Origin: an uncultured Myxococcales bacterium
Lineage (GTDB): Bacteria; Myxococcota_A; Polyangia; Polyangiales; Polyangiaceae
Direction of reading: 5' to 3'
DNA: 36,316 nt
Assembly: GCA_937902985.1 (NCBI GenBank)
Contig: CALFNG010000108.1
Location: 1-36,316 of the forward strand
Under the pieces are notes generated by a model. The model did not search any database. It was not told the DNA's origin and saw nothing but the letters and a program-made list of their open reading frames with translations. This document shows, piece after piece, positions 11,735-36,316 of the stretch; positions within the stretch are counted from its first letter, which is position 1, and each line of letters begins with the position of its first letter. A program made the position numbers and the translations under genes.

Positions 11735-12031
11735 TCACCTGCATACGACGAAGTGCGCGAAGTCCACGAAGGTATCGACCGGCGTGGACCAGTCGGCGTC
11801 GTGCCCTCCGAAGAAGGTCGAGAAGAAGAGCGTGCCGGCCGGCGTGTCGTCCCGGCGGTATCTCAGGTCTTTCGCTTCGAAGGTCGGCGCGAGCGCCGGG
11901 TCGGCGTCGAACCACACACGCGCGATGCCGTCGGCCGCGTCGCCCGAGTTCAGGACGATCTCCTGCGCCAGATGGTGCCACGCGCCCGTGGAGAACGTCC
12001 AGGTCCCGAGCCCGAGCTCCGTTCCGTAGGC
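11735..12031 (-). pseudogene. C-terminal fragment of a polysaccharide-lyase-like protein
   Basis: After an in-frame TAG (12032-12034) the minus frame reads YGTELGLGTWTFSTGAWHHL, IVLNSGDAADGIARVWFD and TLFFSTFFGGHDADWSTPVD, ending VDFAHFVVCR at TGA 11735-11737. The 'FFSTFFGG.....P.D.Y.DF' ending and 'GTW.F..G.WH...Q.V.LN' block resemble the C-terminal half of PL14-like alginate/glucuronan lyases. The N-terminal half is absent and no start codon precedes the block. With the epimerase and GH12 genes downstream it suggests a former carbohydrate-utilisation cluster. Family assignment is by motif memory only. Confidence 0.5.
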
Positions 12032-25205: not shown

Positions 25206-25788
25206 GTACAAGCGGGCTCGGAGGACCCCCGCAGACGGGCGCTGATACCCTTCGACGGCGCGACGGGACGTCCGCTTGCTTGCAGAGTCTGCGATCGCCC
25301 CGTTTCGACTCCAAGAAGTCACGACATCCCAGCCGCGAGGGCGGCGAAGATGCGGCAGGCCCGCGAGGGTGCGCTGCTTCAACGGCGGCGGAAGTGCAGG
25401 AGGGCCATGGGAGAAGAAGACCGGCGTAGGGGAGCGGCTGCGAAGGACCGTTGGAAACGCCGCTGGTCGCGATGCCGGCGAGGACGAGCGCGTGGATGCT
25501 CTTGGCGCTCGGTGTGGGCCGGACCAGTGCGAGCCGCACTTACTGATACGGGGTCCAATACGCCGGCGCGACAACGTACGCCGCAAACCCGGCGGGGTCA
25601 AACAACGACACCACCTTCGTCGCGGTGAGCTGCAGGGAAAATTGCCTGCCCCTGGGCTCGGTTGCTGCGTCCATTTGCGAAAGTAGGGTTAGATAGCCGT
25701 GGCTGCCAAGCGTGCGGTGCTCCTCGGACTGAGAAGCTACGTGTTCGGCGGGCGCGCCGCGAAGGACATCGTACAGTACAGTAGCGAC
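25206..25788. other. Intergenic region; possible minus-strand gene tail
   Basis: This 583-bp gap lies between two plus-strand lipoprotein genes. A minus frame from ATG 25673 would encode 43 residues (MDAATEPRGRQFSLQL ... FAAYVVAPAYWTPYQ) ending at 25540; its codon use is gene-like but no family was recognised, so it may be a relic. The promoter for the downstream gene is expected near the right end. No RNA gene was seen. Confidence 0.3.
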
Positions 25789-26829
25789 GTGCTGGCCTTT
25801 CGCATTCTGGGAGGAGCCGCCGGTTGCCTGGCAGTAGGAGCCTGCGCATCCCTCAGCGGCTTGAGCGCCTACTCGGTTTGCGCCGACGACTGCCTGGATG
25901 CAACGGATGGTAGAGACGCGGCGGGCCTCGCGCAGAACCACAGCGAGGGAGGCAACGGCGCGGGCGACGCCGCAGACGACTTGCCCGCCCCGCCGCCCAA
26001 CAGCGGCTGCGACGCCGCCCTTGCTACCTGCGGCGATCAGTGCGTCGACCTGACGAGCCCCCTCAACTGCGGGACCTGTGGCAATGCGTGCCCGACGTCC
26101 ATCGCCAATGCCCAGCCGACCTGCGGCGCCGGAACGTGCTCGTTCGCGTGCAACGCCGGGTACAGCCTATGTGGGGGCGCATGCATCCAGTACACGACCG
26201 CGGACAATTGCGGAGGCTGCGGCAATGCGTGCTCGGGAAGCACGCCGGTGTGTGGCCCGGCGGGCGTCGCCGGGGCGGATGCCGGCGAGTACACGTGCCT
26301 GTCGGGCTGTCCGTCGGCTACTACGACGCCCTGCAATGGTAGCTGCGTCGACCTCGCGAGCAACGCTAGCCACTGCGGCACCTGCACAACCGCATGCTCG
26401 ACGACCGTGACGAACGCCGTGCCCGACTGCGTTGGACGGGCGTGCACCTTCACGTGCAACAGCGGACACACCCTCTGCGGCGGGTCGTGTGTCGACACGA
26501 CAACCAGCCCGGGCAACTGCGGCAGTTGCGGCCACACGTGCTCCACGAGCGTCGCCAACGCCGCGGCCGCGTGTGCGAGCAGCGCGTGCGGCTTCACCTG
26601 CAACAACGGGTTTTCCCTCTGCAGCGGAGCGTGCGTCGACGAGATGACCGACAACAACAACTGCGGTGGTTGCGGCCTGCTGTTCGCATGCGCTCCCGGG
26701 CATATGTGCCAGAGGGGGCTGTGCGTGTGCAATGCGCCCGCGTGTCCCGCGTGCACCGCGCCCCAGGCCCCTTGCTGCACGGCACTTGGCCTGTGCGGAT
26801 GCGCCCTGGCGGGGGCGACCTGTAAGTGA
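25789..26829 (+). CDS. Cys-rich repeat lipoprotein
   Basis: The protein (346 residues from GTG 25789) has a signal peptide with lipobox LAVGACASLSGLSAYS, typical of Polyangiales Cys-rich surface proteins. GTG 25699 would add 30 residues ahead of the signal and is less likely. The mature part is a chain of about five modules of the type 'C(G/N)G.CVD......NCG.CG..C' (DQCVDLTSPLNCGTCGNAC, CVDTTTSPGNCGSCGHTC, CVDEMTDNNNCGGCGLLF), each followed by 'A.P.C....C.F.C..G..LC'. It ends CVCNAPACPACTAPQAPCC. Disulfide-linked repeats suggest a rigid extracellular stalk or adhesin. Such proteins are often mislabelled as enzymes in databases; no catalytic motif is visible. Confidence 0.8.
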   Translation: MLAFRILGGAAGCLAVGACASLSGLSAYSVCADDCLDATDGRDAAGLAQNHSEGGNGAGDAADDLPAPPPNSGCDAALATCGDQCVDLTSPLNCGTCGNACPTSIANAQPTCGAGTCSFACNAGYSLCGGACIQYTTADNCGGCGNACSGSTPVCGPAGVAGADAGEYTCLSGCPSATTTPCNGSCVDLASNASHCGTCTTACSTTVTNAVPDCVGRACTFTCNSGHTLCGGSCVDTTTSPGNCGSCGHTCSTSVANAAAACASSACGFTCNNGFSLCSGACVDEMTDNNNCGGCGLLFACAPGHMCQRGLCVCNAPACPACTAPQAPCCTALGLCGCALAGATCK

Positions 26830-28829: not shown

Positions 28830-29384
28830 TCATTCCAAGAGCCTGATGTCGTGCCCGAGTTCTGAGAGGTCGTCGTTGAGCTGATGGTCGCGACCCTCCA
28901 AGCGGCGGATGATGGCATGCGGAAAAGCTGTTGCGAACTTCTCGATATGAGAGAAGGGCACAGTCTCATCATCGCGACCCTGATAAAAATAGAATGGAGC
29001 GCCGTCGTGAAGCTCGACGGCCATCTGTCTGGTAGGTCGGAGGTCGTCGCTCGGCCAGCCGCCGTCACCTATGAAGGGCGTCGCGATCAGGAAGACGGCC
29101 GCAGGCCGCCGCTCCACTGTGCCGCCTGCCAGGTAGTCCAGGAGGATTGCGGCACCGACCGAATGGCCGACGAGAAACACACCGTCGCTCAACTTTCTCA
29201 GTTCCCGGGCGATGCTTTTCTTCCATACCGTGGGGTCGGGATCGGCCTCATCAGGCATCCGCGGATAGTGGATCGTGTAGTCGGGGCCGAGCGCCCCCTT
29301 GAGGCTCGCCACGAGCTTGTTGTCCCACGAGTCATGGGCGCCCCTTCCGCCACCTTGGACGAACAACACCTGTCTCATGCGCAT
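28830..29384 (-). CDS. Small alpha/beta hydrolase (RBBP9/YdeN-like)
   Basis: This 184-residue protein starts MRMRQVLFVQGGGRGAHDSW, the oxyanion-strand opening of RBBP9/YdeN-type hydrolases. The nucleophile elbow is VGHSVGA (S75), the acid is in QGRDDETVPF (D138 or D139) and the catalytic His in EGRDHQLNDDL (H167), so the triad is intact. A cytoplasmic serine hydrolase or esterase of unknown substrate is expected. The frame could start at 29384 or 29378. It is transcribed toward the repeat array and is divergent from the sigma-factor remnant. Confidence 0.87.
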   Translation of the reverse strand: MRMRQVLFVQGGGRGAHDSWDNKLVASLKGALGPDYTIHYPRMPDEADPDPTVWKKSIARELRKLSDGVFLVGHSVGAAILLDYLAGGTVERRPAAVFLIATPFIGDGGWPSDDLRPTRQMAVELHDGAPFYFYQGRDDETVPFSHIEKFATAFPHAIIRRLEGRDHQLNDDLSELGHDIRLLE

Positions 29385-29664
29385 ATTGGTACGCCGGCGA
29401 CCCGATTGGGTGTCGGTTTTCTTGGACAGTCTTCAGCGCTGGCGCGACGACGGAGTCCCTGAGCACCCGCGCGCCTGGCTCATCCAGACTGCGCGAAACC
29501 TGGCGATCGATCGCATCCGGCGAAAGAAGACGCTCGCGGGCAAGCTCGACGCCTACGCCGCCGACCTCGTCGCGGTCGTCGAGCCGCCGGCCTCGCTGGA
29601 GATCCCCGACGACCGCCTGCGCCTCATCTTCACCTGCTGCCACCCGGCGCTCGCGGCGAGATCT
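29385..29664 (+). pseudogene. Middle piece of an ECF sigma factor (ECF42-like)
   Basis: The plus frame reads SLQRWRDDGVPEHPRAWLIQ, TARNLAIDRIRRKKTLAGKL and IPDDRLRLIFTCCHPALA. This is region 2.3-2.4 and the linker of ECF42-type sigma factors ('W...GVP..PRAWL..TARN.AID.LRR', 'DDRLRLIFTCCHPAL'). The start of region 2, all of region 4 and the TPR tail are absent: the match ends at about 29655 and runs into the next gene's leader. It is a non-functional fragment truncated at both ends. Confidence 0.8.
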
Positions 29665-29695
29665 CGACCCCAATGTGGTACGGAGGCTCGTGACC

Positions 29696-31093
29696 GTGCC
29701 CTCATCTCCGAGCTCCGCGGGCCCTCCGTCCAATCCGCTCAAACCGTCGCCTCGGCACCACCCTCTCGACGTCGCGCTGCGCCTCTTCGCCGACGTGCGC
29801 GCGGGCGAGGGGCCGACGGTGCTGCTTCTCACGGCGAACGTCTTTCTGCTCCTCACGGCCTACTACTTCCTGAAGGTCGCGCGCGAGCCGCTGATCTTGC
29901 TTGGCGGCGGGGCCGAGGTGAAGAGCTACGCGTCGGTGGGCCAGTCGATCCTGCTCGTGGCCGTCACCGTCATCTACGGATGGCTCGCGTCGCGCGTCGG
30001 GCGCATGTCGCTCATCGCGTGGGTCACCGTGTTCTTCGTCGGAAACCTCGTTGTCTTCTGGGCGCTGGGCGAGCGCGGCGCGCCGCTCGGCGTGCCGTTT
30101 TTTCTGTGGGTCGGCATCTTCAACCTGGTCACCGTCGCTCAGTTCTGGAGCTTCGCGGCCGATATCTACTCCGAAGAGCAAGGCAAGCGCCTCTTCCCGA
30201 TCATCGGCATCGGCAGCTCGATCGGCGCCGTGGCGGGGGCATGGATCGCCGACGAGCTGTTCTTCATCGGGCCCTTCCGCCTGATGCTCATGGCCGGAGC
30301 GGTCTTGCTCGTCAGCCTCGCGCTCACGTACGTCGTGAACCAGAGAGAGCACCAGGCCGAGGGCCTTCGGGCGCGCTCGCAGGAGAGCGTCGAGAAGGCG
30401 GAGCCCATCGGCGGTGCCAACGGCTTCTCGCTCCTGATCCACGATCGCTACTTGATGCTGTTCGCGATCCTCATCCTGGTCCTCAACCTGGTGACGAAGA
30501 CGGGCGACTACGTCCTCGATCGCAAGCTCATCGCGGCCGCGCACGACGCGGGGCAGGTGACGCACGCCCAGGCCACGCTCTTCATCGGGCAGTTCAAGGC
30601 TCGCTACTTCGAGTGGGTCAACGGCATCGGCGTCGTCCTCCAGCTCTTCGCGGTCTCGCGCATCATCAAGTACCTCGGGCTCCGCGCGGCGCTCGTCATC
30701 ATGCCCATCGCGTCGCTCGCCGGGTACTCCGCGGCGCTCGCGGTTCCGCTGCTCTCGGTTCTCTTCATGGCGCGCGCGGTCGAGAGCAGCCTCGACTACT
30801 CCCTGTCGAACACCACCCGTCAGGCCCTCTGGCTCGTCACCTCGCGGGGCGCGAAGTACAAGGCGAAGCAGGTGATCGACGCGTTCGTGGTCCGCTTCGG
30901 CGACGCGGCGTCGGCGGGCGTGGTCTGGGTCGGGGCCCACGAGCACTTCGAGCTCTCGACGTTCATCGTGATCAACATCCTTCTCTGCGTGGCGTGGCTC
31001 GTGTCGGCCGTGCTGCTCGGCCGCACCTACGCCGAGCGAGCGACGAACGCGCCGCCCAGGTCGATCCCGCCGGGTGCCCTGTCGAACGCCTGA
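29696..31093 (+). CDS. ATP/ADP-translocase-like (NTT/MFS) membrane transporter
   Basis: This 465-residue protein has about 10-12 membrane helices (VLLLTANVFLLLTAYYFLKV, ILLVAVTVIYGWLASRVGRM, LMLMAGAVLLVSLALTYVV). Conserved-looking elements LTAYYFLKVAREPLIL, FWSFAADIYSEEQGKRLFPI (transport-family 'FW.....IY...QAKRLFP.I' signature), GSSIGAVAGAW and YSLSNTTRQALWLVTSRGAKY place it among the ATP:ADP antiporter-like branch of the MFS. It should move a nucleotide or related anion across the inner membrane; the direction cannot be seen. GTG 29696 is chosen because GGAGG lies 9 bp upstream; GTG 29690 and 29675 are alternatives. A second member is encoded at 34664. Confidence 0.85.
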   Translation: MPSSPSSAGPPSNPLKPSPRHHPLDVALRLFADVRAGEGPTVLLLTANVFLLLTAYYFLKVAREPLILLGGGAEVKSYASVGQSILLVAVTVIYGWLASRVGRMSLIAWVTVFFVGNLVVFWALGERGAPLGVPFFLWVGIFNLVTVAQFWSFAADIYSEEQGKRLFPIIGIGSSIGAVAGAWIADELFFIGPFRLMLMAGAVLLVSLALTYVVNQREHQAEGLRARSQESVEKAEPIGGANGFSLLIHDRYLMLFAILILVLNLVTKTGDYVLDRKLIAAAHDAGQVTHAQATLFIGQFKARYFEWVNGIGVVLQLFAVSRIIKYLGLRAALVIMPIASLAGYSAALAVPLLSVLFMARAVESSLDYSLSNTTRQALWLVTSRGAKYKAKQVIDAFVVRFGDAASAGVVWVGAHEHFELSTFIVINILLCVAWLVSAVLLGRTYAERATNAPPRSIPPGALSNA

Positions 31094-31513
31094 AGGGCAC
31101 GCCGCCGCCGGCACCTCCCGGGGCCCCGTCGCGAACGTCGGGTCGCGTACCGCTCGTGCGCCTGCGCGCGCGTGACGACACCTCGGGGGGCCGCCGGGCA
31201 TCCGAAATGAAACGCGCGCGCGGCCCGACCTGGGCTAGAGCGCAGTACGGGAACGGAACGTCCAGCGAGGCACGATGAGCCACCGGATACGACAAACCAT
31301 GCGAGAGAGGCCCGCGAAAAGGGCCCGGCAGGAAGAAGATTGGCCCGCGCGGCCAATCGCTGTCCACGCCGCGTCGCCCGTGCGGCCGACCGGACCCGGA
31401 TCGCCTCCGGTCCGGGTGGCATCTGAGCTGCAGTTGCTCTCGTGGCTCTGGCTACGGCGGTCGCCCTCGTTGGCCGCGGGCACGGGCGCACAGAACGGAG
31501 CCACAGTCGGTCC
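31094..31513. other. Intergenic region between the first transporter and the D15 gene
   Basis: This 420-bp gap holds no credible gene. At 31338-31358 it contains a perfect inverted repeat GATTGGCC-5-GGCCAATC, which is AT-flanked and not followed by a T-run, so it reads more like an operator than a terminator. It lies 156 bp before the D15 start, suggesting that the three downstream genes have their own promoter. Confidence 0.45.
31338..31358. promoter_or_regulatory. Inverted repeat, candidate operator of the D15-kinase-like-transporter operon
   Basis: GATTGGCC (31338-31345) and GGCCAATC (31351-31358) are exact reverse complements separated by CGCGC. The position upstream of ATG 31514 fits a repressor or activator site. 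No matching regulator gene lies nearby, so the factor is unknown. Confidence 0.4.
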
Positions 31514-32866
31514 ATGAGCGCGCGCGGTCGATGGTTCGCACTCGGCGCGGCCGCTCTCCTGGCCGCGGCGGCAATACCGCAGTCGAGCGCCCGCGCGGAC
31601 ACGCCGCCGAAACGTGACCTGCCCGACTATGACGGGCGAGGCAGTCCGCCCACGACCCCCGGAGACGTCGCGCTCTGGGTGCCGCGGGTCATCTTCTCGC
31701 CGATCTACTTCGTCACCGAGTTCTTGATCCGGCGGCCGCTGGGCGCGCTGATCGCGGGCGCCGAGCGCGCGGGCTGGCCCGACCTCTTCTACAACTTCTT
31801 CTTCTTCGGCCCTGACCACAAGGCGGGCTTCGCGCCGCTCGTCTTCGCCGACTTCGGCTTCAACCCGAGCGTGGGGCTCTTCGCCTTCTGGAATGACGCC
31901 TTCACGAAGGGCAACGACCTGAGCTTGCACAGCGGCATCTGGACCAGCGACTGGATCGCCGGAGATTTCGCCGACAGGATCCACCTTCACGGCAAGGACA
32001 CCCTGACGTTCGACGCGCTGGGGGTCCGGCGGCCCGACAAGGTCTTCTACGGAATCGGCCCGCGGTCGCTCGAGGGCAGCCAGAGCCGGTTCGGCATCGG
32101 CGAGCTCCAGGGGTCCGCGACGTTCGATTTTCCGCTCTGGCGCTCGAGCCGCATCAAGGCCGGGGTGGGCGTCCGATCGGTCGACCTCTACCACGGTCAC
32201 TACGGCCGAGACCCCAGCGTCGAGGTCTCCGCGGAGCGCGGCACCTTCCCCCTCCCGCCGGGCTTCGGCAGAGGATACACGGCGGAGTACAACCATCTCC
32301 TCGCGGCGCTCGACTCGCGGCGCGAGCGTCCGGCAGAGGGGTCTGGCTTCCGCGTCGAGGTCGAGGCCGAGCAGGGGAGCGACGTGCGGCACTCGCCGGC
32401 GAGCGGCTGGATTCGCTACGGCGGAACGGCGGGGGCCTTCTACGATCTCAACGGGCGGCACCGCGTCGTCAGCCTCTCGGTGACGTCGCTCTTCGCCGAT
32501 CCCCTCGGCCAGGAGCCGATCCCCTTCACCGAGCTCGTCACGCTGGGAGGCGACGGCCCGATGCGCGGCTTCTACCCCGGCCGGCTCGTCGGTCGGAGCG
32601 CCGCGGTGGCGACGGTGCGCTATCGCTGGCCCATCTGGGTCTGGCTCGACGGATCGCTACAGGCGGCGGTCGGAAACGTCTTCGACGAGCACCTCGACGA
32701 GTTCAGGCCGTCGCTCCTCCGTTTCTCGAGCGCGATCGGGGTCGAGAGCGTCGGGACTCCCGACAACTCGATCGAGATCCTGTTCGGCATCGGCACCGAG
32801 ACCTTCGATCACGGCGGGCAGATCGACTCGTTCCGTCTCGCCCTGGGGAGCAACCGTGGCTTCTGA
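31514..32866 (+). CDS. BamA/TamA-like (D15 surface antigen) outer-membrane protein
   Basis: This 450-residue protein has a signal peptide (GAAALLAAAAIPQSSARA) and no POTRA-like repeats. The body is a beta-barrel of alternating hydrophobic strands: FAPLVFADFGFNPSVGLFAF, LTFDALGVRRPDKVFYGIGP, GSATFDFPLWRSSRIKAGVG. The 'LGGDGPMRGFYPGRLVGRSA' segment resembles the D15/BamA '(V/I)RGF..GR' loop-6 motif, which sits inside the barrel, and the chain ends with an aromatic F. It probably forms an outer-membrane pore or insertion platform. The next gene's start overlaps it by 11 bp, so the two products are made together. Confidence 0.82.
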   Translation: MSARGRWFALGAAALLAAAAIPQSSARADTPPKRDLPDYDGRGSPPTTPGDVALWVPRVIFSPIYFVTEFLIRRPLGALIAGAERAGWPDLFYNFFFFGPDHKAGFAPLVFADFGFNPSVGLFAFWNDAFTKGNDLSLHSGIWTSDWIAGDFADRIHLHGKDTLTFDALGVRRPDKVFYGIGPRSLEGSQSRFGIGELQGSATFDFPLWRSSRIKAGVGVRSVDLYHGHYGRDPSVEVSAERGTFPLPPGFGRGYTAEYNHLLAALDSRRERPAEGSGFRVEVEAEQGSDVRHSPASGWIRYGGTAGAFYDLNGRHRVVSLSVTSLFADPLGQEPIPFTELVTLGGDGPMRGFYPGRLVGRSAAVATVRYRWPIWVWLDGSLQAAVGNVFDEHLDEFRPSLLRFSSAIGVESVGTPDNSIEILFGIGTETFDHGGQIDSFRLALGSNRGF

Positions 32867-34661
32867 GCGCGCTTCGAGGAGCGTGGTGGCGGCTCGCTCA
32901 TGGCCGGCGCACGGGTTGCGCTGGCCGAGCGCGGTGGGACTCGCGATCTGCGCGGCGGCGGCGTCGTGCGCGAGTGCGCGGCTCTTCCCCCTCCGCGCGC
33001 CGATGGCGACGGACACCGACCTCCGTTCGTTCAGCGCCCCCTGCCGCGTCGAGCCCAGCAAGAAGGACCCAAACCACCTCGCCTGCACGCCCGACCTCTA
33101 CGTCTCGCCGCTCGCGTGGGACGGGAGCGACAACTCGATCTTCCGGCCGCTCGCGCGCGTCTTTGCAGTCGACCCGGCGGGCGAAGCGCCTAACGTCAAC
33201 AGCATGGACGAGGTGCCCGACTCGGCCTGGTTCACGAATCGCATCGGCGCGCGGCCCATGAGCCTCGACGAGGTCTCTCGCGGCGCCTGCGAGCCCAGGC
33301 TGATCCTCGACGACCCCACCGAGGTCGGGGTCTGGGTCGTGGATCAGGGCAAGATGAACGGCTCGTCGGAAGGATTCCGCGTGAACATCCCGGGCAAGGG
33401 GAAGTACCTCTTCAAGTCCGACGAAGGGGGCGGCGTCGAGCGCCCCACGGGGGCGAGCGCCATCGGCGCGACCGCTTATCACGACGTGGGCTTCTTCACG
33501 TCGTGCGAACAGATCGTGTACTTCAAGCCCTCGGCGCTGAAGCTCACGCCCGGGCTCCGTTTCGCCGACAACTCGGGCATCGTCCGCGACTTCGATCAGG
33601 CCAGGCTCGACAAGGTCTTGAAGGGGTCGGGCCGGCGCGGCGAGTATATACGCATGCAGGCGTCGGCGTGGCTGCCGGGCCACCTGCTCGGCCCGTTCCG
33701 CTACGAGGGCACGCGCGGCGACGACCCGAACGACGTCATCCGGCACGAAGACCGGCGCGACCTCCGCGGCGGGAGGCTACTCGCGGCGTGGCTCGATCAT
33801 TTCGACGCCCGCGAGCAGAACACGATGGATTCGTGGATCTCCGATCGCGGGAAAGACGATCCCGACGCGTCGCCCGGCTACGTCCGCCACTACTACCTCG
33901 ACACCAGCGACTGCATCGGCTCCGAGTGGGCATGGGACGCCATCTCGAAGCGCCTCGGCTACTCGTACCTGCTCGACTACGGCGACATCGGGCTAGACTT
34001 CGTCACCCTGGGCATCCGCTCGCCGGTCTACGATCACATCGAGCGGACGCCGGGGCGCGAGAAGTTCGGCTACTTCAACGTCCGTGATTTCGAAGCCGAG
34101 CGCTGGAAAAACGAGTACCCGAACCCCGCGTTCAGCCGCATGACCGAGCGCGACGGCGCGTGGATGGCCCGCATCCTCTCGCGCTTCACGCCCGAGATGG
34201 TGAGCGCCATCGCCAAGCTGGGCGAGTTCTCCGATCCGGGCGACACGGCCTTCGTCGCCGAGACCCTCGAGGGCCGGCTCGAGCGCATCCTCGACCGCTA
34301 CCTGACGCGGCTCTCGCCGATCGCCGACGTGCACATCGAAGGCAACGCGCTGCTCTGCGGCACCGATCTGGCCGAGCGGCGCGGCGTGCGCGACGCGGCG
34401 GCCTTCGCGTACGAGGCCCGGCTCGCCAGGGGGGCACCGCTCGCCGTCACGCGGCGGAGCGGGGGCGAGGTTTGCGTCGCCCTGCCGCGCATCGCCGGCG
34501 ACGGCGGCCCGGCCGACGAGTCCCCCGCGCGCTACTTCGGCGTGGCCATCGCCGACGGGGTCGCGCCCGGTCCGCTCGTCGCCTATCTCTACGATCGGGG
34601 CCCCGCGAGAGGCTACGCGCTCGCGGGGATCGAACGTCCCAGCCGCGAACGGAGCCGCTGA
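32856..34661 (+). CDS. Lipoprotein with a kinase-fold-like signature (HipA/PI-kinase-like)
   Basis: This 601-residue protein starts at GTG 32856. The signal peptide ends at AAAASC (Cys38). Conserved-looking blocks: MDEVPDSAWFTNRIG, KGKYLFKSDEGGG (K187), GPFRYEGTRGDDPNDVIRHE, DLRGGRLLAAWLDHFDAREQ-NTMD (D317 four residues before N322) and VRHYYLDTSDCIGS (D349). The K / D-x4-N / D spacing and the 'RYEGTR.DDPNDV..HE.RR.LRG..' block suggest a HipA- or PI-kinase-like fold; I recognise this family only as hypothetical, and activity is inferred. The last Asp site is DTS instead of DFG. Being a lipoprotein, it would sit outside the cytoplasm, where ATP must be imported. It overlaps the D15 gene and precedes a transporter by 2 bp. 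Confidence 0.65.
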   Translation: MASERASRSVVAARSWPAHGLRWPSAVGLAICAAAASCASARLFPLRAPMATDTDLRSFSAPCRVEPSKKDPNHLACTPDLYVSPLAWDGSDNSIFRPLARVFAVDPAGEAPNVNSMDEVPDSAWFTNRIGARPMSLDEVSRGACEPRLILDDPTEVGVWVVDQGKMNGSSEGFRVNIPGKGKYLFKSDEGGGVERPTGASAIGATAYHDVGFFTSCEQIVYFKPSALKLTPGLRFADNSGIVRDFDQARLDKVLKGSGRRGEYIRMQASAWLPGHLLGPFRYEGTRGDDPNDVIRHEDRRDLRGGRLLAAWLDHFDAREQNTMDSWISDRGKDDPDASPGYVRHYYLDTSDCIGSEWAWDAISKRLGYSYLLDYGDIGLDFVTLGIRSPVYDHIERTPGREKFGYFNVRDFEAERWKNEYPNPAFSRMTERDGAWMARILSRFTPEMVSAIAKLGEFSDPGDTAFVAETLEGRLERILDRYLTRLSPIADVHIEGNALLCGTDLAERRGVRDAAAFAYEARLARGAPLAVTRRSGGEVCVALPRIAGDGGPADESPARYFGVAIADGVAPGPLVAYLYDRGPARGYALAGIERPSRERSR

Positions 34662-34663
34662 CG

Positions 34664-36316
34664 ATGCGCGGGCCGCGCGCCTGGCTCTCGAGGTACTGGG
34701 ACATCCGCGCCGGCGAAGGCCGGCTCGTGATGCTCTCGTTCGTCGCGCTCCTGCTCATCGTCTCGGCGCATACCATCCTCGAGACCGCCCGCGACGCGCT
34801 GCTCTTGACGCGGCTCCCCCCCAGGCAGCTCGGCGTGGTGTACATCGCCGTGGCCGCCGTCGCGCTGCCCGTCGCGGCGTTCGCGACCGGCGCGGTGCGC
34901 AAGCTCGGCGCGCGCGTCTCGCTCACCGGGTCGCTGACCGTCTCGGCCATCGTGGTGGCCGCGTTCTTCACGATTCGCGTCGGTTCGGTGGCCGTCATCG
35001 CGCTCTACGTGGCCACCGGGGCCATCATCTCGGCGGTCGTCCCCCAGTTCTGGACGCTGCTCGAGGGCGAGTTGACCACGGCCCAGGCGCGCCGCCTCGT
35101 CTCGCCCATCACGTCGGCGGGCATCGTCGGCGGCGTGCTCGGGTCCGCGGCGGCGGCGGCGGCGCTCGTCGTCGTGCGCGTGAAGGCGTTGCTCGTCCTG
35201 TCGTCGCTGACGTTCATTCTCGCCGCAGCGGTCGTGGTCATGATCCCGCTGCGCTCGCGGCCGACCGCCCGTGCGGCGAGCGCGACCAAGACCCCGATGG
35301 TGACGACCTTCGTCGGAGCGGTTCGCGAGGAGCCGTTCCTGCGCCAGGTCGCGCTCGTCGTGACGGTGTCCACGGCGACCTTGCTGGCGCTCGACTACTT
35401 CTTCAAGTGGACCGTAGCGCGCACGGTGCCTCACGACGAGGTCGGCATGCTCGTGGCGCGCGTCTATGCCGCGCTGAACGTCGCGTCGCTCGTCCTCCAG
35501 CTCCTGTTCGGCTCCGCCCTGGTGCGGCGGGTCGGGCTCGCGGCGGCCATCACGCTGACCCCGCTGCTCCTCTTGCTCGGCGCGGGCGGGGCGTTCGCGC
35601 TCGGCGGCGCGCTCGTCGTCGTGATCATCCTGAAGAGCATCGACGGGAGCCTGCGCTACAGCGTCCACCGCATCACGACAGAGCTCCTCTACCTCCCGAT
35701 CCGAGCCGACCTGCGCGCGCGCGCCAAGCCCCTCATCGACGGCGCCCTGATGCGCACGGTGCAGGCCGCGACCGCCGGCGTGCTCCTCGGGATCAGCGGT
35801 CGCGCCTTTCTGTCGCCGCGGCTCTTCGCGGCCATCGTGGTGGGCCTCGCGTTCGTCTGGACCGTGACCGCCATCGGCACGCGCCGGCCGTACATGAGCC
35901 TCTTGCGGCGGACCGTGGTCGGTTCGGCGGAGCTCGGGTGGTCCGACGGCGCCGACCCGCTCGATCTGGCCACCGCCGAGGTGCTCGTCGAGTTCCTCGC
36001 GAGAGACAACCCCAGCGAGGTCCTCGCGGCCATCGACGCCTTGCACCGGCGCGGGCACGACCGCCTGATCCCGGCGCTCATCCTCCACCACGAAGACGAG
36101 CGCGTCCTCGTGAGCGCGCTCGCCCTCTTCGGCGCGTCGCAGCGCACCGACTGGCACACGCTCGCGCGCCGCTTGCTCGATCGCCCGCGCGAGCCGGTGC
36201 GTATGGCCGCGGCGCGGGCGCTCGCGATGCACGGCAAGCTCGAGATCACGCGCCTCGCCGGGGACCCGAGCGCACGCGTCGAGGCCTATGCGACGCTCTA
36301 CACCGTGCTCGCCGGG
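34664..36316 (+). CDS. ATP/ADP-translocase-like transporter with HEAT-like C-terminus (3' end outside window)
   Basis: The frame is open from ATG 34664 (MRGPRAWLSRYWDIRAGEGR) to the window edge, 551 codons. About 11 membrane helices follow (RLVMLSFVALLLIVSAHTIL, VVYIAVAAVALPVAAFATGA), with HTILETARDALLL, VPQFWTLLEGELTTAQARRL and SIDGSLRYSVHRITTELLYL matching the same transporter family as the 29696 gene. After about residue 420 the sequence turns soluble and helical (TAEVLVEFLARDNPSEVLAA, ALHRRGHDRLIPALILHH, EPVRMAAARALAMHGKLE), typical of HEAT repeats. It begins 2 bp after the previous stop. HEAT repeats fused to such transporters suggest docking to a partner. The total length is unknown. 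Confidence 0.85.
   Translation, partial: MRGPRAWLSRYWDIRAGEGRLVMLSFVALLLIVSAHTILETARDALLLTRLPPRQLGVVYIAVAAVALPVAAFATGAVRKLGARVSLTGSLTVSAIVVAAFFTIRVGSVAVIALYVATGAIISAVVPQFWTLLEGELTTAQARRLVSPITSAGIVGGVLGSAAAAAALVVVRVKALLVLSSLTFILAAAVVVMIPLRSRPTARAASATKTPMVTTFVGAVREEPFLRQVALVVTVSTATLLALDYFFKWTVARTVPHDEVGMLVARVYAALNVASLVLQLLFGSALVRRVGLAAAITLTPLLLLLGAGGAFALGGALVVVIILKSIDGSLRYSVHRITTELLYLPIRADLRARAKPLIDGALMRTVQAATAGVLLGISGRAFLSPRLFAAIVVGLAFVWTVTAIGTRRPYMSLLRRTVVGSAELGWSDGADPLDLATAEVLVEFLARDNPSEVLAAIDALHRRGHDRLIPALILHHEDERVLVSALALFGASQRTDWHTLARRLLDRPREPVRMAAARALAMHGKLEITRLAGDPSARVEAYATLYTVLAG

Follow-up and report, generated by a model that had tools for sequence, protein, structure and literature searches.

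Gene content of the locus

The window analysed here is a stretch of 36,316 nucleotides from an uncultured Myxococcales bacterium (contig CALFNG010000108.1). The genes under study and the key sites of the kinase-like lipoprotein KIN are listed in Table 1.

Table 1. Genes of the locus and key sites of KIN (nucleotide positions in the window)
Feature	Position	Strand	Remarks
NTTa: NTT/TLC-type nucleotide-transporter relative	29696..31093	+	465 aa, GTG start (29675 possible)
D15: Omp85-family barrel without POTRA domains	31514..32866	+	450 aa, signal peptide
KIN: kinase-like lipoprotein	32856..34661	+	601 aa
NTTb: NTT relative, C-terminal HEAT repeats	34664..36316	+	551 aa of ~950, cut by contig end
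KIN lipobox Cys38	32967..32969	+	lipobox in 58 homologues
KIN K187 codon (VAIK-like lysine)	33414..33416	+	K in 56/59
KIN catalytic-loop core D317-AREQ-N322 of HFDAREQN	33804..33821	+	D 56/59, N 55/59
KIN D349 codon (DFG aspartate; window reads DTSD)	33900..33902	+	D in 55/59

The gap between NTTa and D15 is 420 bp, D15 and KIN overlap by 11 bp, and 2 bp separate KIN from NTTb; these coordinates bear out the gene order and spacing given in the original prediction. The contig stops inside NTTb, which resumes on another contig of the same genome, C219 (54-bp exact overlap). There a cNBD gene comes next and a PAP2 gene after it, each starting a few bases from the stop codon of the preceding gene. 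All the genes originally reported are therefore present, but the set was incomplete: a PAP2 phosphatase and a cNBD protein also belong to it. The same gene set recurs at another locus in this genome.

Distribution of the gene set across Myxococcota

The archetype of the locus in Myxococcota is (PAP2)–NTTa–D15–KIN–(PAP2)–NTTb/HEAT–cNBD, in which D15 and KIN usually overlap; PAP2 and cNBD are found in only part of the loci. The original prediction depended on a neighbourhood conserved in other genomes, and the set is indeed conserved across the phylum. D15 lies within 1.5 kb of KIN in 51/63 group I cases, and in most of 39 loci 39–84 nt separate the D15 stop from the KIN lipobox, so that the gene starts overlap or abut. 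NTT genes number 49 in 853 kb around KIN vs 0 in 800 kb of control stretches; the corresponding figures for PAP2 genes are 34 and 1. An NTT is found within 8 kb of KIN for 35 of the 63 group I genes, and the lack of one near the other 28 is due partly to contig ends and partly to dispersed genes. In the genus g4, D15 and the NTTs are found together and KIN elsewhere. The 12 members of group III have neither a D15 neighbour (0/12) nor an NTT neighbour (0/12). Comparing whole genomes, a strong NTTa match is present in 39/47 genomes with KIN vs 4/98 without it (hand count; Fisher P 8e-23, uncorrected for phylogeny). Concerning the window's own genome, a profile search showed that three of its five NTT-like loci adjoin its only two KIN loci; this replaces the result of a single-sequence search, which had placed all its NTT genes beside KIN.

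Conserved motifs and lipoprotein signal of KIN

The residues K187, D317-x4-N322 and D349 are present in KIN where they had been predicted, and 55–56 of 59 homologues keep them in the alignment, a conservation on which the kinase reading had been made to depend. KIN thus has the protein-kinase-like features: a VAIK-like lysine, a D-x4-N catalytic loop and a DFG-like aspartate. Its relatives carry the plain HxDx[KR]xxN ... DFG signature, which is read as HTDMKEDN plus DFG in group II, and many of them have DFGD at the site where the window protein has DTSD. Since relatives carry this signature, we consider the assignment of KIN as protein-kinase-like well supported by motif and profile. The K, D and N are lost in the 12 relatives of group III (active-site-dead) and also in the KIN copy of locus L088, which D15 still adjoins. 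The lipobox Cys is found in 58 homologues; the residue at +2 is mostly A or G and never D, and the lipid anchor most likely sits in the outer membrane.

Family comparisons and fold prediction

The KIN profile matches that of a second secreted family over 304 columns (hhalign Prob 98, E 5e-15), and the K, D and DxG of the two fall in register; the score is 120, against 27 or less in shuffled controls. The motif of this second family is KLK ... NxDxKExENN ... DxGHSFG. No match to KIN was found in Pfam (Fam20C included), NCBIfam, PHROG, PADLOC or PDB sequences, the last searched with both the KIN sequence and its profile, and no relatives were found in viral contigs and plasmids. Profile–profile comparison with Pfam HipA_2 (PF20613) gave a weak, marginal match, but one in register. 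The best E-value was 0.17, in 2/59 members, which does not reach the gathering cut-off, so KIN was not assigned to HipA_2; P-values from the hhalign column-shuffle control of this comparison were left unused because it yielded short high-scoring artefacts. CotH (PF08757) was rejected as parent family, its hhalign score falling inside the shuffled range, and a search of the window's genome for CotH found none. A role in anti-phage defence was also discarded, there being no credible PADLOC match.

AlphaFold models of the mature protein and of the core, each built from alignments of only four sequences, have a mean pLDDT of 44 and 40, respectively. In both, the low-confidence N-lobe has the strand/helix order of kinases, with K187 in the third strand; beyond this the models were of no use. 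A Foldseek search with the first of these low-confidence models returned chance matches only, mainly Ig-like and none significant. Judged from sequence, a kinase-like fold and an envelope location are strongly indicated for KIN, and catalysis is likely.

Transporters, barrel and phosphatases

NTTa matches Pfam TLC (PF03219) above the cut-off (E 1.7e-9), and its profile, built from 25 relatives, matches the solved NTT structures 9j3n (E 2.2e-33) and 9j3j (E 5.3e-26). The NTTb profile matches 9j3n (E 3.4e-22) as well as HEAT structures, and the protein has the layout of the NTT-HEAT group: an NTT domain, then HEAT repeats, with a cNBD encoded next. Four charged residues (K155, E245, E385 and K527 in AtNTT1 numbering) are conserved in characterised exchangers and needed for ATP/ADP exchange (PMC10654386, PMC3306366). 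In NTTa they align to S/A, G, E/D and D; only E385 is kept, so ATP/ADP may not be its substrate, and we class NTTa as an NTT relative rather than a proven ATP/ADP exchanger. Of the ATP/ADP role originally proposed for the transporters, the family relationship is thus genuine, but just one of the four exchange residues is retained.

D15 matches Pfam Omp85 (PF01103) above the cut-off over residues 185–393 (E 6.9e-8), and a Pfam scan for POTRA domains found none. The PAP2 copies belong to Pfam PAP2, with the active-site motifs in most, and show a weak match in the PDB to LpxE and phospholipid phosphatase 1. They have an N-terminal signal-like segment, and 31/40 copies end in an aromatic residue.

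Proposed function and alternative explanations

The analysis supports the original interpretation in part. The gene set suggests, short of proof, that the many myxobacteria possessing it deliver ATP beyond the cytoplasm and phosphorylate some target there. Our preferred reading, held tentatively, is an envelope phosphotransfer module made up of KIN, D15, the NTTs, the cNBD protein and PAP2. KIN would be a lipid-anchored protein-kinase-like enzyme, assembled or held with the co-translated D15. It would use a nucleotide to phosphorylate some component of the envelope, perhaps a lipid or a molecule linked to one. NTTa and NTTb would exchange nucleotides across the inner membrane, supplying ATP and taking back ADP; this ATP supply we infer. 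The HEAT repeats of NTTb, on the cytoplasmic side, and the separate cNBD protein could tune the exchange by cyclic nucleotide, and the PAP2 phosphatases may undo or balance the phosphorylation.

The same genes might instead let these bacteria, which are often predatory, scavenge nucleotides: D15 and PAP2 would help to take up and trim the nucleotides or other phosphorylated compounds that prey release, the NTTs would import them, and KIN would be a periplasmic binding or trapping factor with a kinase-like fold. The strong enrichment of PAP2 near KIN and the D15–NTT unit of genus g4, which has no adjoining KIN, agree with this. However, mere binding would not need the phosphotransfer residues (K, HxD...N, D) that KIN conserves, and K155, E245 and K527 of the nucleotide-exchanging NTTs are missing; we regard scavenging as unlikely. 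The transporters and KIN could also do unrelated jobs and merely share an envelope gene cluster, as the varying gene order and the 28/63 group I KIN genes without a nearby NTT might suggest. This is quite unlikely given the genome-wide association of NTTa with KIN, the position of three of the five NTT-like loci in the window's genome, and the lack of D15 or NTT neighbours in group III.

The remaining alternatives concern KIN itself. Some kinase-like folds catalyse transfers other than phosphate, and KIN, fed by the nucleotide supply proposed above, could carry out AMPylation, glutamylation or the transfer of a lipid head group. The DTSD of the window protein, in place of DFGD, would fit such a chemistry, but the HxDxKxxN and DFG of its relatives look like those of ordinary phosphotransfer kinases, and we give the idea little credence. 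A non-catalytic scaffold, that is a decayed kinase fold that only aids D15 assembly or gating, would explain why D15–KIN is the tightest pair and why the copy at L088 is D15-linked without any active-site residue. It is highly improbable, as the active-site residues are strongly conserved and the group that has lost them is the one without D15 or NTT neighbours.

A bolder form of the envelope phosphotransfer module is a Gram-negative envelope with its own energy supply, where ATP export by NTTs under cyclic-nucleotide control would power an outer-membrane lipoprotein kinase with its Omp85 barrel, opposed by PAP2, on a lipid or surface substrate; this would be a bacterial counterpart of phosphorylation in the animal secretory pathway. 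We consider it doubtful in this full form.

Comparison with known systems

As the original prediction had it, no described system of such make-up was found in the literature. A 2020 review describes how ATP gets to the Gram-negative periplasm as unclear, with no ATP–ADP translocase homologue known to be encoded (PMC7432876). A conserved set of genes in which NTT relatives are joined to an envelope kinase-like protein would offer a concrete, testable way of powering reactions outside the cytoplasm with ATP. The gene set would also assign a cellular role to the NTT-HEAT proteins, which are widespread among free-living bacteria but have no known function (PMC5381601). Also, KIN adds an undescribed kinase-like family, outside every family library and PDB sequence searched.

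The NTT-HEAT layout of NTTb, with a cNBD gene next, is that described for some bacteria in the account of the NTT-HEAT(-cNBD) fusions (Major et al. 2017, PMC5381601), whereas the available part of that account does not mention a kinase-like lipoprotein, an Omp85 barrel or PAP2 as neighbours. NTTa differs from the nucleotide-exchanging NTTs at the K155, E245 and K527 positions. Like LpxE and the phospholipid phosphatases, the PAP2 proteins of the cluster belong to the PAP2 family and mostly have its active-site motifs; unlike them, the cluster copies have the N-terminal signal-like segment and the C-terminal aromatic residue. In KIN, as in HipA_2 and the protein-kinase-like superfamily, K, HxDx4N and D follow one another in this order and align in register, but KIN differs in being a secreted lipoprotein, in its length of ~560 residues and in its extra N- and C-terminal domains. 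Fam20C (PMC7948968) and CotH (PMC7821199) are kinase-like enzymes that work in secretory compartments or at the surface, as KIN would. Finally, D15 resembles the 'noNterm' Omp85 proteins (Heinz and Lithgow 2014, PMC4104836) in being a barrel without POTRA domains; unlike them, it is translated together with KIN, and its gene is linked to those of the NTTs.

Organisation of the gene cluster

The genes for NTTa, D15, KIN and NTTb (4 genes) occupy positions 29696-36316 of the window. Their spacing is as originally noted: a 420-bp gap, an 11-bp overlap and a 2-bp gap are all present. KIN, the kinase-like lipoprotein, has no match in Pfam, NCBIfam, PHROGs, PADLOC or PDB sequences. The window spans the entire contig C108, and the rest of NTTb was found on another contig of this genome, C219, using the C-terminus of a related NTTb as query. 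Reversed, C219 is identical to the 3' end of the window over 54 bp, and its tip carries an adapter-like stretch ahead of this overlap. Once extended onto C219, the full NTTb has about 950 aa; a small overlap joins it to the next gene (cNBD), whose product has two cyclic-nucleotide-binding matches, and the PAP2 phosphatase gene that follows overlaps cNBD as well.

Features of the cluster and of the compared loci (L-numbers; L238 lies on C219)
Feature	Location	Strand	Length	Match or remark
Cys-rich protein	window 25699-26829			Pfam STIG1 (family named from plants), E 4e-12
ORF upstream of NTTa	window 29370-29690			by eye, resembles a truncated ECF-type sigma factor (PRAWLIQTARNLAIDRIRRKK)
NTTa	window 29696-31093	+	465 aa	Pfam TLC
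D15	window 31514-32866	+	450 aa	Pfam Omp85
KIN	window 32856-34661	+	601 aa	no Pfam match
NTTb	window 34664-36316	+	551 aa up to contig end	Pfam HEAT/MFS, weak
Encapsulin shell protein gene	L238:7324-8127			downstream of PAP2; Linocin_M18, E 5e-85
PAP2	L238:8602-9624			phosphatase gene after cNBD
Adapter-like tip	L238, about 11809-11843		~35 nt
PAP2	L063:9555-10451			phosphatase gene
Tandem KIN copies	L068:7807-11261			contig C397, window's own genome
Tandem D15-KIN pairs	L077:6055-12486			another genome
Group I KIN	L088:4110-5735			lacks K, D, N and D; D15 still adjoining

Distribution and conservation of KIN

Single-sequence searches found KIN homologues in 61/145 genomes sampled from the order and 21/189 sampled from the phylum; a profile search found them in 50/379 genomes. 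Across 59 aligned mature proteins K187 and D317 are each kept in 56, N322 and D349 each in 55, and R300, R301, R304, W312 and H345 are invariant. A lipobox is present in almost every homologue. In E. coli, the residue after the lipoprotein cysteine bears on membrane destination; by this sorting rule the KIN lipoproteins fit the outer membrane, since Ala or Gly predominates at that position and Asp never occurs there.

Probable relationship to kinases

The textbook kinase signature is HxDxKxxN plus DFG, and at the level of motifs this is what the more distant group II relatives contain (HTDMKEDN and DFGEALG). The window protein has HFDAREQN and YLDTSD, and many close relatives HFDSREQN and DFGDCFGS. 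Profile search also reached a second secreted family (L189-L194), whose large proteins (about 1000-1200 aa) contain a kinase-like region (KLK, NxDxKExENN and DxGHSFG); the family has no Pfam match (one protein tested) and no NTT or D15 found nearby. Compared by profile, KIN and this family align over 304 columns (Prob 98, E 5e-15), the three sites being in register, at a score of 120 vs a maximum of 27 for shuffled controls. HipA_2 also aligns in register with KIN, marginally; CotH does not. Two AlphaFold runs on four input sequences (mean pLDDT 44 and 40) partly built the N-lobe alone, its strands and helices following one another as in kinases and its third strand carrying K187. By motif and profile KIN is very probably kinase-like.

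Group III, twelve related genes at about 25% identity, serves as a built-in control: it has lost K, D and N at nearly all positions examined and never retains the full set. Its relatives at L118, L122 and L202-L212 are apparent pseudokinases, several still lipoprotein-like. With D15 counted up to 1.5 kb away and NTT up to 8 kb away, both score 0/12 in this group. The corresponding counts are 51/63 and 35/63 in group I, very slightly inflated because 3/60 loci were picked for a known nearby transporter, and 1/11 and 3/11 in group II.

Gene linkage

The fullest gene order, PAP2-NTTa-D15-KIN-PAP2-NTTb-cNBD, is found at L063-L065. In most of 39 loci the KIN lipobox lies 39-84 nt from the D15 stop, so that KIN usually starts at or within the D15 end. 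The KIN loci (853 kb) contain 49 NTT and 34 PAP2 genes, vs 0 and 1 in a control of forty 20-kb stretches at preset positions in five genomes of the same order (800 kb). A sensitive profile finds five NTT-like loci in the window's genome, three of them adjoining its two KIN loci. Across six genomes, 17/26 NTT genes lie within 10 kb of KIN (binomial estimate, summed log10 P near -37), a fraction that is an upper bound because single-sequence counts miss distant NTT paralogues. In one genus, g4, D15 and NTT genes remain side by side, and KIN lies at another place, which suggests that D15-NTT is a separate unit and that KIN can act from a different locus.

Proposed model and known systems

The model starts from what is observed: the gene set, signals, conservation and linkage. 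KIN and D15 would sit together in the outer membrane, where KIN may phosphorylate a substrate of the envelope at the expense of a nucleotide. NTTa and NTTb would carry nucleotide outward and product back inward, with the HEAT and cNBD parts as putative regulators of this traffic, and PAP2 would take the phosphate off. Among the PAP2 proteins of KIN loci (L063-L065, L083, L238 and others) most have a signal-like N-terminus, and the C-terminal residue is F in 27/40 and W in 4/40, a feature also of outer-membrane proteins. One copy weakly resembles lipid phosphatases in PDB, so that a lipid is at most a plausible substrate.

A literature search that covered few of the subscription journals found no paper describing the KIN family or the combination of KIN, D15, NTT and PAP2, which only weakly suggests that none exists. 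By profile, both transporters match solved NTTs (NTTa at E 2e-33, NTTb at 3e-22). Exchange by AtNTT1 needs four charged residues, K155, E245, E385 and K527 (PMC3306366, PMC10654386), whereas NTTa has S/A, G, E/D and D there and keeps one of four; its nearly invariant K76 and invariant R400 lie a few residues from the two lost lysines. Omp85 proteins without POTRA are already known (PMC4104836), and NTT-HEAT proteins with an adjoining cNBD gene were reported in 2017 with no function assigned to them (PMC5381601).
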